Shown here: piece by piece, positions 3,195 through 56,588 of the stretch | Layout of the letters: every line of letters starts with the position of its first letter | How positions within the stretch are numbered: position 1 is the stretch's first letter | From: Gemmatimonas sp. | Lineage (GTDB): Bacteria; Gemmatimonadota; Gemmatimonadetes; Gemmatimonadales; Gemmatimonadaceae | Assembly (NCBI RefSeq): GCF_027531815.1 | Contig: NZ_JAPZSK010000005.1 | Coordinates: 1 to 64,000, forward strand | Length of the DNA stretch: 64,000 nucleotides | Reading direction: 5' to 3' | Translations under genes and position numbers: made by a program | Notes under the pieces: generated by a model | The model's input: the letters and a program-made list of their open reading frames with translations, nothing else | Databases searched by the model: none | What the model was told of the DNA's origin: nothing

Positions 3195-3734
3195 CTACCG
3201 CCGCACCCGCTCCCGCCAGAGCATGAGCGTGTAGTCGATCGTGGCGGCCGCCCCCACGCCAAAGACCACCCACACCATGCCGTCGGTGGCGGCGGGCCAG
3301 AGAAGCACCACGAGAAAGGTGGCCAACTGCAGGCCGGTGACGGCCTTGCCCAGCAATCGCGCCTTGAAGGTGATGGGGCGCAGCCAACTGACATTGCGGG
3401 CCACGAACCAGCCCACGATGGACATCAGGTCGCGAAACATGAGCGCCACGGCCTGCCACACGCTCAGCTGCGCGCTGGCCACGAAGCCAATCACGACGCA
3501 CAGCGCGAAGAAGCGGTCGGCCACCGGGTCCACCAGTGCGCCGAGGCGCGACGACGCCTGGGTACGTCGCGCGAGCCACCCGTCGAGAAAGTCGGTGAGC
3601 GACGCGATGGCGATGAGCGCCAACCGCGGCATGACCGCCTCCGTCACGAGAAACCCGAACCCCAGCACCACCCGGGAGGTGGAGACGAGATTGGGCAACG
3701 TGACGAGTGCAGTGCCATTCGACGCGCGTGTCAT
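3195..3734 (-). CDS. CDP-alcohol phosphatidyltransferase family protein
   Basis: This 179-aa integral membrane enzyme transfers a phosphatidyl group from CDP-diacylglycerol to an alcohol in phospholipid synthesis. The full family signature Dx2DGx2ARx8Gx3Dx3D is present: D48, D51-G52, A55-R56, G65, D69 and D73. All four metal-binding aspartates are kept. Hydrophobic segments lie at about 18-45, 74-97, 98-115 and 128-165. The length fits the PgsA/cardiolipin synthase-like subgroup, but the acceptor alcohol cannot be read from sequence. It is divergent from the gene at 3803, and its 3' end abuts a 16-bp tandem repeat array. Confidence 0.85.
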   Translation of the reverse strand: MTRASNGTALVTLPNLVSTSRVVLGFGFLVTEAVMPRLALIAIASLTDFLDGWLARRTQASSRLGALVDPVADRFFALCVVIGFVASAQLSVWQAVALMFRDLMSIVGWFVARNVSWLRPITFKARLLGKAVTGLQLATFLVVLLWPAATDGMVWVVFGVGAAATIDYTLMLWRERVRR

Positions 3735-3802
3735 GCAGGTAAGCTACCCGGGCACGCCCCCGGGGTGCCAGCGATCCCCGGTGGCCGTTATCGTCACCAC
3801 AC

Positions 3803-48125: not shown

Positions 48126-48152
48126 CCGTCTAGCCGTGTGCGGTCCAGGCCC

Positions 48153-48177
48153 CGGCCCCGTCCGCAAGAAGGGGCCG
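48153..48177 (+). terminator. Hairpin after hypE
   Basis: CGGCCCC (48153-48159) pairs with GGGGCCG (48171-48177), loop 11 bases. It lies 28 bases after hypE. No T run follows, so it is a weak terminator candidate. Confidence 0.45.
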
Positions 48178-48257
48178 AGGTGCGGACGCGAGGACAGGTG
48201 GTCGCCGCTGGCGTGCCGTGGGTCTCGCGGCGCTCCGATTTGACTAAGTTTCGGGGT

Positions 48258-49178
<921 letters not shown>

Positions 49179-50237
49179 GTGAGCACCGCGCTGCGCATGC
49201 CCGCCGAATGGGAGCGTCACGACGCCACCTGGATTGGCTGGCCGCATCACGAGCCCGATTGGCCCGGCAAGTTCGCCCCCATTCCCTGGGTGTACACCGA
49301 AATCGTGCGGGCCCTCGGCCGGTTCGAGCGCGTGGAAATTCTTTGCCACAACGCGCAGGTGGCCGAGGAGGCGCGCGCGTGTCTCACGCTGCACGGCGTT
49401 GAGGAGGGGCAGTATCGCCTGCATCTGCAGCCCACCGATCGCGTGTGGCTGCGTGACTCGGGCGCCACCGGCGTGCACCGCGCCGACGGCAGCACCGCGC
49501 TCGTGCGCTGGGGCTTCAACGCGTGGGCCAAGTACGACAACTTCGCGCTCGACGCCGAGGTGCCGGCGCGCATGGCGGCGATCAGCGGCCTGCCGGTCAT
49601 CACCGCCGTGCGCCACGACAACGGCCAGCCGCTCATCCTCGAAGGCGGCGGCATTGAGACGGACGGGGCCGGCACACTGCTCGTGACCGAGGAGTGGCTG
49701 CTCAGCGATGTGCAGGTGCGCAACCCGGGGTACACCCGCGGCGACTACGAGCGCGCCTTTCGCGAGTATCTGGGCATCACCCACACCATCTGGCTGGGCG
49801 AAGGGTGCGTGGGTGACGACACGCACGGACACATCGACGACATCGCCCGCTTCGTCGCGCCGGGTGTCGTGGTGCTCGCGCACGAGGAAGACGCGAGCGA
49901 CGAGAACCACTCGCGCTCGCTCGGCAACCTGCATCGCCTGCAGCGGGCGCACGATGCAGGGGGCCGGCCGCTCGAGGTGGTCACCCTGCCCTTCCCGCGC
50001 GCCGTGATCATGGACGGCATGCGCCTCCCGGCCAGCTACGCGAACTTCTACGTAGCCAACGGCGTATGCATAGTGCCCACGTTCAACGACCGGAACGATC
50101 GGCGGGCGCTCGATATCCTTGCCGATCTCATGCCCCGGCACGAGATCGTGGGTATTCATGCGGTGGATCTGGTGTGGGGGCTGGGCACACTGCACTGCCT
50201 GTCGCAGCAGCAGCCCGCAGCACGGAGCGGATCATGA
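49179..50237 (+). CDS. aguA: Agmatine deiminase
   Basis: AguA converts agmatine to N-carbamoylputrescine, the step before AguB. The 352-aa product has the guanidine-group hydrolase fold with WLRDSGAT, EGGGIE, GDDTHGHIDD and the catalytic C340 in GTLHCLSQQQP. The start GTG at 49179 is immediately after the aguB stop. Its stop overlaps the next gene by four bases. The order amidase then deiminase makes a complete agmatine to putrescine route. Confidence 0.95.
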   Translation: MSTALRMPAEWERHDATWIGWPHHEPDWPGKFAPIPWVYTEIVRALGRFERVEILCHNAQVAEEARACLTLHGVEEGQYRLHLQPTDRVWLRDSGATGVHRADGSTALVRWGFNAWAKYDNFALDAEVPARMAAISGLPVITAVRHDNGQPLILEGGGIETDGAGTLLVTEEWLLSDVQVRNPGYTRGDYERAFREYLGITHTIWLGEGCVGDDTHGHIDDIARFVAPGVVVLAHEEDASDENHSRSLGNLHRLQRAHDAGGRPLEVVTLPFPRAVIMDGMRLPASYANFYVANGVCIVPTFNDRNDRRALDILADLMPRHEIVGIHAVDLVWGLGTLHCLSQQQPAARSGS

Positions 50238-50839: not shown

Positions 50840-50953
50840 CGGCCCGCGGCCCCGGGGTGATCGGCCGCACGCGTGGTGCGCGAGGCGGTCGGGGTGGGCA
50901 GGTCGGTCTCGAGGGTGAGGTGACGCCCCCTCAGGGTACGCTGTTGTCCCACG

Positions 50954-51499
50954 ATGACTGACGCCGAGTTGGTCGTCCGCACCCGGGCCGGTGATCCGGA
51001 GGCGTTCGGATCGCTGGTGGCACGGTATTACGACGCGTGCTGGCGGTTCGCGTACCACATGCTGGGAGAGCGCGCCGATGCCGAGGACGTGGTTCAGGAC
51101 AGCTTTCTGCGCGCGTATCTGGCCATTGGCCGCTACGACGAGCGCGATCAGTTCCGTGGCTGGCTCTTCCGCATCCTGACCAACCAGTGCCGCAACTACC
51201 TCACGTCGCGCGGACGGCGCACCAAACGGTTCGTGCAGGACGACCTCGCCATCGAGTCGGCCGCGGCGCCCCCGCCGGGGCTGGCGCCCGGTGTGGAAGA
51301 CGACGTGCTTATCCGGGCGCTGGCGCAACTCGATCCGCTGCAGCGGGAGGCGTTGCTGCTCAAGTACGCCGAGGGGCTCGAGTACGCCGAAATGTCCGCC
51401 ATGACGGGGGCCGGCGAATCGGCGCTCAAGATGCGCGTCAAGCGCGGCAGCGAGCGGTTGCGCGCCATGCTGTCGGCTTCGCCGGAGCAATCGTCGTGA
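50954..51499 (+). CDS. ECF-subfamily RNA polymerase sigma factor
   Basis: This 181-aa sigma factor has region 2 (FGSLVARYYDACWRFAYHMLGERADAEDVVQDSFLRAYL) with the DAEDVVQDSF motif, and region 4 (LDPLQREALLLKYAEGLEYAEMSAMTG, then KMRVKRGSERL). It lacks extra domains. Typically an adjacent gene encodes an anti-sigma factor; here the next gene is a single-pass membrane protein without the zinc anti-sigma motif. It opens a four-gene operon that includes glycogen-binding-type proteins, so its regulon may involve carbohydrate or envelope sensing. Confidence 0.93.
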   Translation: MTDAELVVRTRAGDPEAFGSLVARYYDACWRFAYHMLGERADAEDVVQDSFLRAYLAIGRYDERDQFRGWLFRILTNQCRNYLTSRGRRTKRFVQDDLAIESAAAPPPGLAPGVEDDVLIRALAQLDPLQREALLLKYAEGLEYAEMSAMTGAGESALKMRVKRGSERLRAMLSASPEQSS

Positions 51500-51595
51500 T
51501 ACGGCGTATTATTGCGATCATGCCTGCGTTCCCGGGCGGCACCGCCGCCATGCCGCTATCCCCAAGGGTGCCCATCGCGGGGCCCGGGAGGCGTC

Positions 51596-52285
51596 GTGAC
51601 CGCTGACGACCGACACGGTCCGGCCCCCGAGGGCGTGCATGATCTGCACGATCTGCACGACCCGTACGCCGAGGCCATCACCGCTCGGCTTCGCCGCTCG
51701 TACGAGGCGCAGGCGCCCCATGGCGGGGAGCACGTGGCGCAGGTGGTGCGGGCCGTGATCGCCGCCGCGGCCGCGGCCGCCGCGCCCGCGGCCGCTGTCC
51801 CACGCGCCGCCCCTTCCGCCGGGGTGTCCTCGCGCACCGCTCCCCCCCGCTGGTGGTGGGGAGCGGCGGCGGCAGCCGTGCTCATGATCGTGGTGGCGCG
51901 GCCGTGGCGCCCCGACGTGCACCAGCGCGAGGCCGATAGCGCCCTGGCGGTGGGGGGTGCGCGTTCGCTGCCCTCACCCGCGGCGCCGGCAGCGCCCGCC
52001 GCGCGCGAGGGCACTGTGCGCTTCACCTTGTCGGTGGCCGACAACGCGCGGGCGGTGGCGCTCGTGGGTGATTTCAACGGCTGGGACACCGCCGCGACCC
52101 CCATGGTGCAGCAGGGAACCGACGGGAGCTGGACGGCGCAGGTGCCGCTCGAACCCGGTCGTCACGAGTACGCCTTCGTGGTGGACGGCGAGCGGTGGCT
52201 GGTCGATCCGCTGGCGCCGCAGGTGGAGAATGCCGGGTTCGGCCCCACCAACGCGATGGTGGTGAACGGGCGAGGCGGCAAATGA
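51596..52285 (+). CDS. Single-pass membrane protein with a glycogen-binding (AMPK/CBM48-like) domain
   Basis: This 229-aa protein has an N-terminal cytoplasmic part (1-80), one membrane segment (86-101) and an extracytoplasmic glycogen-binding-like domain (141-223). That domain reads VALVGDFNGWDTAATPM, GSWTAQVPLEPGRHEYAFVVDGERWLVDP, the E-set pattern of AMPK-beta and isoamylase N-terminal domains. Its position after the sigma gene and its topology suggest an anti-sigma factor, but no zinc HxxxCxxC motif is present. GTG 51596 has GGGAGG five bases upstream. It overlaps the next gene by four bases. Confidence 0.75.
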   Translation: MTADDRHGPAPEGVHDLHDLHDPYAEAITARLRRSYEAQAPHGGEHVAQVVRAVIAAAAAAAAPAAAVPRAAPSAGVSSRTAPPRWWWGAAAAAVLMIVVARPWRPDVHQREADSALAVGGARSLPSPAAPAAPAAREGTVRFTLSVADNARAVALVGDFNGWDTAATPMVQQGTDGSWTAQVPLEPGRHEYAFVVDGERWLVDPLAPQVENAGFGPTNAMVVNGRGGK

Positions 52286-53001
52286 CGCTGTCCACGGTGT
52301 GGCTGCTCGCCGCCCAACTGGCCAGCGCCACCACGCCGGCGGGATCGGCCGACACCATTCTCGTGCCCCCCGCACGCGCGCCCGCCTCGCAAACGGCGGT
52401 GGCGCGGCGCGACCAGCAGGCCTTCGACGGCAGCCGCTTCGATTCGCTCACCGCCAATGCGCTGCGGGCGCTGTTCGACGATGCGGCCGCAGCCGGACTG
52501 CCGGTGCGGCCGCTGGTGAACCGCGCACTGGAAGGGGCGGCGCGACGTACCACGAGCGAGCGCATCCTGCGTGTGGTGCGCGAGCATGCGCTGGCGCTGC
52601 GTGATGCCAAGCAGGCGTTGGGGGACCGCAGCAGCGACGATGAGCTCGAGGCCGGCGCCATTGCCCTGCGCGCCGGACTCGACCGTCGCGCCCTCGAGAT
52701 GGTGCGCAGCAGTCGCGCCAGGTCGCCGGTGGTCGTTCCCCTGGTGGTGCTCACCGACCTCGTGCGCCGCGGTGTACCGGCGGCCACCGCCCAGGAGGCG
52801 GTCGCCACGCTTGGCCGTGCCCCGCGTGCCGACGACACCCTGCTGGGGCTGCAGGCCACGGTGGCCAAGAACGCGCAGCGCGGTCCCGGGATGGCTGTCG
52901 ACGCCCTGAATCGTTACGTTAAGGCCGTGGTAGTGACGGCGCCCGAAGCGGCGGCGTCCACATCTTCCGACCGCAAACCGGTCCGCCCACCCACCCCGTG
53001 A
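52282..53001 (+). CDS. Hypothetical secreted protein, ECF operon
   Basis: I do not recognise this 239-aa protein. It has a possible signal peptide (TLSTVWLLAAQLASA) then a long helical region rich in Ala, Arg, Asp and Leu. The middle (60-170) has helices around NRALEGAARR, REHALALRDAKQAL and GAIALRAGLDRRALEM, with no cysteine. The tail is low complexity. It overlaps both neighbours by four bases, so it is coupled to the two glycogen-binding proteins and probably works with them in the periplasm. Function unknown. Confidence 0.65.
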   Translation: MTLSTVWLLAAQLASATTPAGSADTILVPPARAPASQTAVARRDQQAFDGSRFDSLTANALRALFDDAAAAGLPVRPLVNRALEGAARRTTSERILRVVREHALALRDAKQALGDRSSDDELEAGAIALRAGLDRRALEMVRSSRARSPVVVPLVVLTDLVRRGVPAATAQEAVATLGRAPRADDTLLGLQATVAKNAQRGPGMAVDALNRYVKAVVVTAPEAAASTSSDRKPVRPPTP

Positions 53002-54464
53002 CGCCTCGCCGCCGTTCCATCCGCGCGTCGCGCTGCCGCTCCCTGCCGAGCAGCGGATGGGTCATGCCGTGTGCGCTGCTGGCCGTCGGTAGCCCTGCCG
53101 AGCGGCTGCTGGCGCAGGTGCGGGGCGATGCCCCGATGGTGCCCGCCGCCACCATCGGTCCGGTCACCGATGCCCCCACCTTTTCGGTGCTCGGACTGGC
53201 GTCGCTCCCCGATGGCGGCGGCAGCGCGCTGTCGCAGCGCAACGATGTCTGGCTGGGCGCCACGCAGGCCGTGGGTCGACTGGGCCCCGTGCGCTTCGCG
53301 GCGCTGGCCAGCGGCAACGTGCGCGTGGAAGACGGCTTCTCGAATGGCCCCAACGCGCAGGGGCTGCTCACGCTGCGCGCACGGGCCCGAGTGGGTGAGA
53401 ACCGGCTGTGGAGCGCGGTGAGCTACGGCCGTTCGGCGTTCAACGGCAATCCTTCGGCGGGGCTCTACAACGACGCGCTCATGCCGTCGCCACGCGGCGG
53501 CAGCGACGTGGGCATCATGACGGCCGTTTCGAGTGCCATGTCCAGCGACACCACCGTGACCCGGCGCGTGGATGCAGGACAGCTGGCGCGACTCGAGGCG
53601 GGCATGGTCACCACGTACGCGGGCGTGGAGTTCGCCTTCGGCATGTCGTTCGAGCGTGCCACGCGTGTCACCACGCAAACCATGACACTCGATGTGCCGC
53701 GGGTGTCCATGAGCGTGCCATCCAGTGCGGGCGAGGTGATCAACACGGCCTCCCTGCGCACCATGCAGCGGCGCGATGTGGCCACCGGCATTGCGTCGGT
53801 GGGCTTCAACACCGGCCAGACGCAGTGGCTCATGTCGGTCACCGCCCCCGTGGCAAGCTGGGTGAACAACGACGCGCTCGCGCCACGCGCGCAGGCAGTG
53901 CCCACCGTGGCCTCGCTGGCCGTGGTGCAGCCCATCACCGGCTGGCTGTCGCTGGTGGGCGCCGCCGCCACCAACCCGGCCACGCTGGGCGGGGCGATGC
54001 TGCGCGACGAGCTGCGCGATCGCCACCGGTCGCGACTCTCCCCGGTGGTGGCGCTGGGGGTGCGGCTGTCGCGTTTGCCGTGGCGCGACCACGACGGTAC
54101 GCCCACCGGCATTCTCGCCTTCGAAACGCGCACGTTGGGCGTGGTGGACAGTGCGTCACTCGAGCAGGTGGACCATGGCCCCGAAGACAGCGCCATGGCC
54201 ACGCGCGACACGCTGCGCGTGGTGTTGCTGGTGGACGCGCCGCGCGCCGAAAGCGTGGAGCTCATGGGCGACGCCACGCAGTGGAGCGTGACGCGCCTGC
54301 GCCGCCTGCCCAATGGTCGCTGGCGCGCCGAGCTCAAGCTGCCCCCGGGCGCGCATCGTGTGGCGGTACGCGCCGACGGCGGCGCCTGGATTGCGCCGCC
54401 GGGGCTCCCCATTGGCAACGACGAGTTCGGCAGTCCCGTGGGGCTGCTGATCGTGCGGCGGTGA
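52998..54464 (+). CDS. Predicted outer-membrane barrel with C-terminal glycogen-binding-like domain
   Basis: This 488-aa protein has a basic N-terminus and a hydrophobic segment at about 20-40 that may be a signal. It then has a long region (about 55-385) of alternating hydrophobic and polar residues typical of a beta-barrel. The last 85 residues are an E-set/glycogen-binding domain: SVELMGDATQWSVTRLRRLPNG, RWRAELKLPPGAHRVAVRADGG. It overlaps the 239-aa gene by four bases (GTG start). A GC hairpin terminator (54571-54598) lies about 100 bases after the stop. It may sense or bind glucans at the surface. The barrel call is from pattern only. Confidence 0.65.
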   Translation: MTPRRRSIRASRCRSLPSSGWVMPCALLAVGSPAERLLAQVRGDAPMVPAATIGPVTDAPTFSVLGLASLPDGGGSALSQRNDVWLGATQAVGRLGPVRFAALASGNVRVEDGFSNGPNAQGLLTLRARARVGENRLWSAVSYGRSAFNGNPSAGLYNDALMPSPRGGSDVGIMTAVSSAMSSDTTVTRRVDAGQLARLEAGMVTTYAGVEFAFGMSFERATRVTTQTMTLDVPRVSMSVPSSAGEVINTASLRTMQRRDVATGIASVGFNTGQTQWLMSVTAPVASWVNNDALAPRAQAVPTVASLAVVQPITGWLSLVGAAATNPATLGGAMLRDELRDRHRSRLSPVVALGVRLSRLPWRDHDGTPTGILAFETRTLGVVDSASLEQVDHGPEDSAMATRDTLRVVLLVDAPRAESVELMGDATQWSVTRLRRLPNGRWRAELKLPPGAHRVAVRADGGAWIAPPGLPIGNDEFGSPVGLLIVRR

Positions 54465-54511
54465 GGGGGAGGCGAGGCGGCGGGGGCGTGTGTGCGCCGA
54501 AAAGCAAACAG

Positions 54512-54706
54512 CAGACGGCAGACGGCAGGAACAACAGTGGGCAGTACGGCAGGGATGTGGTCGAACAAAACGGGCGCCACTGCTTCGCAGGGCGCCCGAT
54601 TTCCTTTGCGGTGGGGACATCGGCGGCGGCGCGCAGCGCACGCCGCCGTGTTGTTCTTCCGCATTCCTGCGTACTGCGTGCTGTAGTTCCTGCCGTCTGC
54701 CGTCTG
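54512..54706. repeat. Inverted heptad element with terminator hairpins between convergent genes
   Basis: Bases 54512-54532 are the exact reverse complement of 54686-54706 (21 of 21). The unit is a 7-bp repeat GACGGCA, with further degenerate copies outside. Between the arms, CGGGCGCC (54571-54578) pairs with GGCGCCCG (54591-54598) around an inner CTGCttcGCAG stem. A second GC hairpin spans 54621-54648, followed by TGTTGTTCTT. The element fills the gap between the outer-membrane gene and the convergent secreted protein. Confidence 0.85.
54571..54605 (+). terminator. Terminator hairpin of the ECF operon
   Basis: A near-perfect stem (CGGGCGCC, one bulged A, inner CTGC/GCAG, GGCGCCCG) is followed by ATTTCCTTT. 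It lies about 107 bases after the last operon gene, inside the inverted heptad element. Confidence 0.7.
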
Positions 54707-54752
54707 GCGGGTTGCTCGCTGGCGCAGACTCACGCCGCCCCGCCGCCCCGCC

Positions 54753-56588
54753 TCACCGTCCCGGTCTCACGCGTATCCGCTGTGTGGTCGAATCGGTGAT
54801 GCCGGCGCCGCTCACCATGAGCGTAAGCTGATACTCGCCCGCCGGCACGCTGGGGAAATTGAAGGAGAGGCTGCGTCCCGCCCCGCCATCGGGGCGCCCG
54901 TTGTCGTTGTACTTGATGGACACGGGCGTGAGCGTCTTCGAAAGGCCAACGGAGGCGCCGAGCTTCTGCATGAAGCTCGCGCCGAGACGCGTGGTGCGGA
55001 GCGACACCTGCAGCGGCGCGTCCGGCGAGGCCGGTCGGTAGCTCTCCCAATAGATACCGATCTGCGTACCACCTTCGATGTCGAGCGAGCCATACGCCTG
55101 CCCCGCATTGCGCTCGAGGCTGGGCGTCGGTGATGGGTCACCGCGCTGCAGCAGCAGAAAATCGGAGAGGCGCACCTCCCCCGTGAGCGGCTGCACCGTG
55201 GTGCGCACCCGCGCCGCACGCTTGCCCACCGGCGCCAGCACCTCGAGGCTCGCCATGGCCTGACTCGTGAGCGGCACCAGCAGCGCCCCGTTGGCGCCGG
55301 CGCTGTCCCTGGTCACCGTGCGCGCGGCGGTGCCATCGAGGCGATCCACCGTGAGTCCCGCCGTGTACGGCGCGCGTCCCATTTCGAGTTCACGCATGAG
55401 CCGGTAACCACCTGCCAGCAGCGTGGTGTCGCCTCGGCGGAAACGCGCGAACTGGTGGGGCAGCGCCCCGTAGCCCGCCGCGTAGCGCGTGCTGTAGCGC
55501 ATGCGCGCCTTCTTGCGCCGCGGATCCCAGTCGGCCGGTGTGGAGGTGAGCGGGTTCTCGATCGCCTCCACCGTGGGCATGAAGTCGTAGCTGGGCGTGG
55601 GCTCGTGCCCGATCACCTGCGGCGGGCGCGGGTCGGCCACGCCACCGTTCTGCACCGACCACGCCGTGGGCCAGCCGTAGCGCACCTGCGACTCGAGCAG
55701 GTCGTCGCCCCACTGCAGGTCGTACGGAATACGCCCCAGCGCGTGCACCCGCGACATGGTGCGCCGCGCGTAGAACTCGTTGCGCAGGTCGTTCCCCGGC
55801 AGCATCCAGAGCGGCTGCGCAAGACGGAAAATGCGCTCGTTGCGCGCACGGCGACCCTCGCACCCCAGCGCCTTGTAGTTCGCGTGCTGGAACGGGTCGA
55901 GCCACATGGTGATATCGGTCCATTCACATCGCTGGTCGGCGGGCATGGCGGTGAGGGCCCGTTCGAAGGCCTGTCCGCTGGCGACATGCTGGTTGGCGTT
56001 GTGCAGCGCCAGTCCGCGCAGCGCCTGACACCACCACTCGGTACCGCCGCAGGCGCGCGCCGCCACGAGCGCGGTGTCCACGAAGCCGCCCTCGATGGCA
56101 TAGCGCACGCGCATGCCGCTCACCCAATCATCCTTGGGGTCCGCAGCCTGCGCGCGCCCCAGCAGCTCCATCAGCTGCTCACGCTCCAGCTTCGCATCGG
56201 CGCGCTCGGCCGGCGGCGGCACATCGCCGTTGTTGTTCCAGTAGCAGATGCGTCCCAGCGGCACTTCACAGGTGGCATCGGCGCCGCCGTTGTAGAAGCG
56301 CAGCCCCAACCGATGGTTGCGCTCGAAGGCATCCTGCAGCCCGCGCGCCTGCGACCCCACCGCGCCGACACTGCTCGCCGAGCCACGCAGCGGATCACGC
56401 GACGGCGCCGGGCGGACGCTGTCGGCGGCGGCGGGTGGCGTGTTGTTGGCCTGGGCCACGGCCGAACGCGCCGTGCCGGCGCCCGCCACGAGGGCAAGCA
56501 CCGGCAGCACCCGGTGAAGCAGACGGAGACGGGTGCGTCGCACGCCGCTGGCGCGATGCGATCCTGTGGTGAACGCGAGCTGATCCAC
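54753..56588 (-). CDS. Secreted protein with possible GWxTD-like region
   Basis: This 611-aa protein is not clearly recognised. A signal peptide (about 24-46, ending SAVAQA) sends it out of the cytoplasm. Four or more cysteines in the first 260 residues (CEVPLGRICYW, ACGGTEWWCQ, CEWTD, CEG) may form disulfides. A stretch near residues 275-315 (NDLRNEFYARRTMSRV, then WGDDLLESQVRYGWP) is reminiscent of GWxTD-domain proteins, where a similar layout precedes RxxxxxYG. The similarity is weak. A C-terminal beta-sandwich (about 520-605) is likely. It stands alone on the minus strand. GTG 56588 is used. Confidence 0.6.
   Translation of the reverse strand: MDQLAFTTGSHRASGVRRTRLRLLHRVLPVLALVAGAGTARSAVAQANNTPPAAADSVRPAPSRDPLRGSASSVGAVGSQARGLQDAFERNHRLGLRFYNGGADATCEVPLGRICYWNNNGDVPPPAERADAKLEREQLMELLGRAQAADPKDDWVSGMRVRYAIEGGFVDTALVAARACGGTEWWCQALRGLALHNANQHVASGQAFERALTAMPADQRCEWTDITMWLDPFQHANYKALGCEGRRARNERIFRLAQPLWMLPGNDLRNEFYARRTMSRVHALGRIPYDLQWGDDLLESQVRYGWPTAWSVQNGGVADPRPPQVIGHEPTPSYDFMPTVEAIENPLTSTPADWDPRRKKARMRYSTRYAAGYGALPHQFARFRRGDTTLLAGGYRLMRELEMGRAPYTAGLTVDRLDGTAARTVTRDSAGANGALLVPLTSQAMASLEVLAPVGKRAARVRTTVQPLTGEVRLSDFLLLQRGDPSPTPSLERNAGQAYGSLDIEGGTQIGIYWESYRPASPDAPLQVSLRTTRLGASFMQKLGASVGLSKTLTPVSIKYNDNGRPDGGAGRSLSFNFPSVPAGEYQLTLMVSGAGITDSTTQRIRVRPGR

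Follow-up and report, generated by a model that had tools for sequence, protein, structure and literature searches.

The first 64,000 nucleotides of contig NZ_JAPZSK010000005.1 from Gemmatimonas sp. (NCBI RefSeq assembly GCF_027531815.1), the whole stretch analyzed here and referred to as "the window," contain four same-strand genes at 50954-54464, which we call S, T, G, and B. We propose that this operon is a self-regulating switch that spans the envelope and acts on an extracytoplasmic function (ECF) sigma factor (S) through an inner-membrane protein (T), a secreted protein (G), and an outer-membrane barrel (B), and we assign this full reading a probability of about 0.72. That the genes pair a sigma/anti-sigma module with an outer-membrane arm of its own is, taken separately, quite likely. 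The module is a real and widespread signaling system of unusual build, and it probably informs the transcription machinery of something in the periplasm, for example a sugar polymer or the condition of the outer membrane. The features are listed in Table 1.

Conservation of the four-gene module

A total of 140 loci were searched with hidden Markov models made for S, CBM48, and G, and 118 S-T pairs were found in Gemmatimonadota. Most are arranged as S-T-G-B (78 pairs), with S-T-G (15), S-T-B-G (11), B-S-T-G (5), S-T-G-B-G (5), S-T (3), and S-T-B (1) making up the remainder. The neighborhood of all four families recurs at approximately 100 loci, more often than by chance, and the source genome itself carries a second, divergent copy (L064). 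In seven of the S-T-G loci (L188, L197, L199, L200, L201, L202, and L204), a same-family barrel is encoded on the other strand; in most of them, a metE-like gene comes after the G gene, and the convergent barrel gene lies past it. In an even sample of 200 genomes of the phylum, AMPK1_CBM matches occur in 120 (∼60%) and B matches in 117, the latter outside the genus mostly via CBM48; all 30 genomes of the genus have a match.

G is the most strictly conserved partner of the module, though it lay outside the mechanism first put forward. It stands beside S-T in 114 of 114 pairs with enough contig, and the four pairs lacking it all end at a nearby contig end. Furthermore, the number of G matches per genome (2, 3, 2, 1, 3, 1, 2, and 1 in eight genomes) equals the number of modules found, so G is dedicated to the module. 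A hydrophobic, signal-peptide-like segment was found in 67 of 73 G proteins, and neither the window protein nor the relatives scanned belong to any Pfam or NCBIfam family. At L128 (2720-4657, minus strand), G and the barrel form a single 646-amino-acid frame, either a fusion or a lost stop codon, which was not used as evidence.

Using the T alignment, we scanned 84,980 species genomes and recovered S-T-G modules from a Nitrospira (L225), an Eisenbacteria (L226), a Salinivenus (L234), a deltaproteobacterium (L237), a Nitrospirae (L241), a Chitinispirillaceae (L245), and a Myxococcales (L250) genome. These represent Nitrospirota, Eisenbacteria, Rhodothermota, Myxococcota, and Fibrobacterota in addition to the deltaproteobacterium, and some include a second CBM48 protein; they are mostly metagenome assembled, such that individual ones may be misbinned, and in L237 and L245 the G matches are weak. 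In the Nitrospira metagenome-assembled genome, a 135-amino-acid lipoprotein-like CBM48 protein with a lipobox-like FLACV motif (L225, 2785-3189, plus strand) stands where the barrel would otherwise be and is encoded between T and G. A preliminary description of this DNA had named conservation of gene order outside this genome as one of the tests on which its proposal could fail; the order is kept far beyond it.

The sigma factor and its putative inhibitor

S is an ECF sigma factor: at 181 amino acids, it has sigma regions 2 and 4 but lacks region 3 (Pfam). The pattern GTGAC-N17-TGTTG ends a few bases 5' of its start, at the same place and with a fixed spacer in the window and in 24 of 24 genus orthologs examined, so placed that transcription from this candidate promoter would begin at or beside the S ATG. 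Across the phylum, a dyad GTGAC-N18-GTCT/GTTG, its spacing fixed at 18, occurs ahead of the S gene at 28 of 101 nonredundant loci, where 0.2 would be expected (9 of 3,874 background windows). Because this bipartite element precedes S so much more often than expected, it suggests autoregulation, in which S itself may be the reader. In the genome of origin, the pattern has 14 matches, compared with 1 for a reversed control. Defining a regulon from the pattern was tried and rejected; among the 14 sites, only that of the operon was verified as promoter-like.

Judging by homology and gene context, T very probably acts as a class I anti-sigma factor that does without zinc. Its gene adjoins an ECF sigma gene in the 118 pairs, an arrangement that serves as a criterion for class I anti-sigma domains (ASDI). 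Its N-terminal segment places a median of 66 residues ahead of the transmembrane (TM) helix and follows the positive-inside rule in 91 of 118 Gemmatimonadota members. The NCBIfam model NF052375, named "anti-sigma factor," matches 18 of 75 Gemmatimonadota relatives of T (best E value, 1.7e-10) and also relatives in Nitrospirota, Fibrobacterota, and the deltaproteobacterial group (among them L241, 2.3e-8; L225, 2e-4; L245, 8e-4); all of these matches fall below the curated cut-off of the model and hence indicate relatedness, not equivalence. Scanned in like manner, none of the 73 G-family proteins matched NF052375.

The zinc motif HxxxCxxC is kept in the T relatives of L245 (Fibrobacterota, Chitinispirillaceae) and L237 (the deltaproteobacterium). 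In the Gemmatimonadota T N termini, neither HxxxCxxC nor CxxC was found (0 of 118 each). Since the motif is retained in the former and absent from the latter, the Gemmatimonadota N termini look like class I anti-sigma domains after zinc loss. The HX3CX2C motif is optional in this class, with ∼44% of ASDI lacking it (PMC7406223). A zinc-binding anti-sigma domain in the window T was considered and rejected, as the protein has no cysteines. The L237 T gene has an in-frame TAG inside the zinc anti-sigma domain (3640-3760), which could mark a pseudogene, readthrough, or an assembly error.

The S-T contact, whose prediction the preliminary description had called for, was approached through covariation and structure prediction. 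In a mean-field direct coupling analysis of the 118 pairs, the top-10 interprotein score was 1.57, exceeding all 12 of 12 within-cluster shuffles (null, 1.42 ± 0.05 when shuffled within 31 clusters and 1.07 ± 0.06 within 10). Several top pairs link sigma region 2 to the pre-TM helix of T, which is the dominant contact in class I anti-sigma pairs (PMC7406223). We regard the covariation as suggestive, as support for an interface and not proof of one. S and T share one reading frame with only TGA stop(s) between them (window 50954-52282 and L066, L067, L069, L073, L077, and L182), and thus it was possible to model S, the gap, and T as a single chain in AlphaFold2. The alignment for this model combined in-frame reads from seven loci of the genus with T sequences at genus level. 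The predicted local distance difference test (pLDDT) values were mostly >90 in the sigma factor and ∼51 to 62 in the two pre-TM helices of T.

The outer-membrane barrel and the paired CBM48 domains

The AlphaFold2 model of B, built with 73 relatives (mean pLDDT, 73.7), has 12 barrel strands and a separate beta-sandwich. Its barrel matches 12-strand outer-membrane proteins, namely, FapF, NanC, VhGalP, and autotransporter units, at Z scores of 16 to 18 (Foldseek and VIA-align). The even strand number, together with a hydrophobic signal segment in 59 of 73 relatives, is as expected of an outer-membrane barrel. An even number of strands combined with a C-terminal soluble domain places that domain in the periplasm, and because B has both, its CBM48 should face the periplasm. 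Pfam detects AMPK1_CBM in B at an E value of 0.0016, below the curated cut-off, and in 65 of 73 relatives; the sandwich superimposes on the glycogen-binding domain of AMPK beta1 (1z0m) with a Z score of 12.4 and a root mean square deviation of 1.3 Å over 80 residues.

In T, Pfam finds a C-terminal CBM_48 domain (PF02922; E value, 1e-10), which is present in 75 of 75 relatives and has a profile match to 1z0n (4.6e-13); NCBIfam adds only similarity to branching-enzyme CBM48. Both proteins have an E-set beta-sandwich. The preliminary description had proposed CBM48-like C-terminal domains in two products and an architecture crossing the envelope: the folds are real, by profile in T and by structure match in B, and the architecture gains support from the 12-strand model and its structural matches. 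From the topology we infer that both domains are periplasmic, one anchored to each membrane.

Ligand residues were read by alignment on AMPK beta1 in 118 T and 124 B proteins. We take these to be W100, K126, W133, and N150, with W100 and W133 as the sugar-stacking tryptophans. W100 is kept in 118 of 118 T and 124 of 124 B proteins, and W133 is kept in 97 of 118 and 116 of 124, respectively. Each group also has conserved residues that are not those of AMPK: R124, R128, P136, and G151 in B, where R124 (88 of 124) and R128 (86 of 124) were gained, and A126, D136, and S151 in T. In a tree of this short domain, B forms a clade (support, 0.86 to 0.94) apart from T, the enzyme CBM48s form another (0.98), and the second CBM48 of L225 is not placed within the B clade.

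As the preliminary description had it, the sigma gene is followed by three genes, the last three of the four overlapping by four bases (ATGA at T/G and GTGA at G/B). T and B start with GTG, at 51596 and 52998, and a gap of 96 nucleotides (nt) separates S and T; the T start agrees with the ATG start in the closest ortholog (L066), likewise 96 nt downstream. Predicted mRNA structure in the gap did not exceed that of shuffled sequences (z, 0.35). Just 3' of the barrel gene (54452-54771) is a nested inverted repeat with 37-nt arms (89% complementary) and 41-nt arms (76%), whose ∼200-bp core has at least 7 further near-full genomic copies plus partial ones and resembles a miniature inverted-repeat transposable element or a repetitive extragenic palindromic element. 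Two genes upstream of the operon (48138-50237) resemble, from their translations alone, a carbon-nitrogen hydrolase and an agmatine deiminase of the polyamine pathway.

Table 1. Features of the operon, in window coordinates
Feature	Position	Strand	Basis
Candidate autoregulatory promoter, GTGAC-N17-TGTTG	50920..50946	+	Fixed spacer in genus orthologs; phylum-wide dyad
S, ECF sigma factor, 181 aa, regions 2 and 4	50954..51499	+	Pfam PF04542 2.8e-19, PF08281 7.4e-12; TIGR02937 sigma70-ECF 2.4e-26
T, putative zinc-free class I anti-sigma factor, 229 aa	51596..52285	+	CBM_48 1e-10; family-level anti-sigma matches
T parts: N terminus cytoplasmic, single TM helix, periplasmic CBM48 (aa ~140-224)			
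G, gene-3 family, 239 aa, secreted (signal peptide)	52282..53001	+	No Pfam/NCBIfam match
B, outer-membrane protein, 488 aa; 12-stranded barrel (aa 61-358), C-terminal periplasmic CBM48 (aa 405-487)	52998..54464	+	AlphaFold2, Foldseek, VIA-align

Proposed mechanism, rival readings, and related systems

In the proposed switch, T would keep S at the inner membrane at rest. Altered binding by the two CBM48 domains, whether of an alpha-glucan-like oligosaccharide and/or of each other via G, would then expose the periplasmic part of T to a protease, and RseP, a homolog of which is encoded in the source genome, would complete the cleavage. Freed S would transcribe its own operon, S-T-G-B, from the promoter GTGAC-N18-GTYT and so replenish both receptor and inhibitor. 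Several observations weigh against this scheme. K126 is kept in 0 of 118 T proteins, being Ala or another residue, and is lost in B too; N150, which T keeps in 73 of 118, has been lost in B (kept in 6 of 124); and the module showed no glycan genes. The 14 genome-wide motif matches define no regulon outside the operon itself. The covariation of S and T is only modestly above its within-cluster null, and their single-chain model (predicted template modeling score, 0.31) does not resolve an interface and was counted neither for nor against contact. Finally, the window T itself has no anti-sigma match; because its N terminus is too diverged for a direct one, its assignment rests on the family.

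These last points would favor a reading that denies T an anti-sigma role, leaves the control of S to something else, and makes T, G, and B mere targets of S: AlphaFold2 gives no confident S-T interface, and the window T N terminus lacks a family match. We consider this highly improbable given the anti-sigma model in 18 of 75 relatives, the zinc motif in homologs, the constant S-T adjacency, and the covariation; the preliminary description's proposal of a zinc-free anti-sigma factor is supported by the first two of these. The ligand-site residues divide the earlier proposal of glucan sensing, as the aromatic platform W100/W133 stands, but K126 and the B N150 do not; an alpha-glucan as the natural ligand of the CBM48 domains is a possibility that we rate somewhat below even, and glucan sensing is plausible as one of two live options. 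The other is that the T domain docks on that of B, via G, if the barrel is correctly assembled, so that loss of contact, with no sugar involved, frees S. The separation of the T and B domains into two groups apart from enzyme CBM48s, their own conserved non-AMPK residues with K126 lost in both, and the obligatory presence of G fit such sensing of outer-membrane integrity, but a pure contact module would not need sugar-stacking tryptophans that are near-invariant in both proteins, and we hold it to be a tentative alternative. It is unlikely that B, with G, is instead an oligosaccharide porin and the output of the system, with T alone sensing sugar and the B CBM48 capturing cargo. The barrel does resemble the 12-strand oligosaccharide porins NanC and VhGalP (Z scores, 16.7 to 18.1), and a putative promoter precedes the whole operon; however, FapF and autotransporter barrels match equally well, so that the fold does not specify a porin, and hydrolases and transporters are not in the conserved module.

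The preliminary description knew of no system with this layout. The layout is not unique to this genome, but a literature search, which reached few subscription papers, found no published description of a CBM48 anti-sigma factor or an S-T-G-B operon. Compared with AMPK beta and branching-enzyme CBM48s, the domains here share the fold, W100, and W133. They differ in that one is joined to an anti-sigma TM protein and the other to a barrel, and they should lie outside the cytoplasm, lack K126, and fall in clades apart from the enzyme domains. Unlike the 12-strand B, FecA-type barrels have 22 strands and are TonB-dependent receptors equipped with plug and signaling domains, and the Pfam families listed for the members of T and B include no FecR, STN, or plug/TonB-dependent receptor domains. 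The module is nevertheless like FecI-FecR-FecA in placing an ECF sigma factor, an inner-membrane anti-sigma factor, and an outer-membrane barrel in series (PMC9249621).

Nearest in design appear to be Dma/Das and RsgI (PMC13088901, PMC4711584). Dma/Das are dual membrane-spanning anti-sigma factors of Bacteroides, working with ECF21, in which the anti-sigma domain and barrel share one polypeptide with a disordered tether, encoded in a three-gene, mainly self-inducing operon (PMC13088901). Both systems have an ECF sigma factor and connect cytosol to outer membrane by an anti-sigma domain, a TM helix, and a beta-barrel (PMC13088901), whereas in the window and surveyed loci, the anti-sigma factor and barrel are separate genes, each with a CBM48, accompanied by G, and the phyla differ. 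Similarly, in SigI/RsgI of Clostridium thermocellum, the anti-sigma factor sits in the membrane and carries an extracytoplasmic carbohydrate-binding module that serves as a polysaccharide sensor, and a promoter precedes the sigI-rsgI operon; that system differs in being Gram positive, with a SigI that is not ECF, an RsgI N-domain, CBM3, PA14, or GH10 in place of CBM48, and no outer-membrane partner (PMC4711584). No RsgI domain is among the Pfam families listed for T members, and S is ECF, not SigI.

Gemmatimonadota are common soil bacteria whose signaling is little characterized, and their genomes hold up to several of these modules, which include a protein family (G) missing from Pfam and NCBIfam. 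As a proposed trans-envelope switch, the module adds to FecIRA and Dma a third design by which a sigma factor could receive signals from the outer membrane. It would make testable the idea that bacteria monitor periplasmic glucans or barrel assembly by means of a CBM48 domain.

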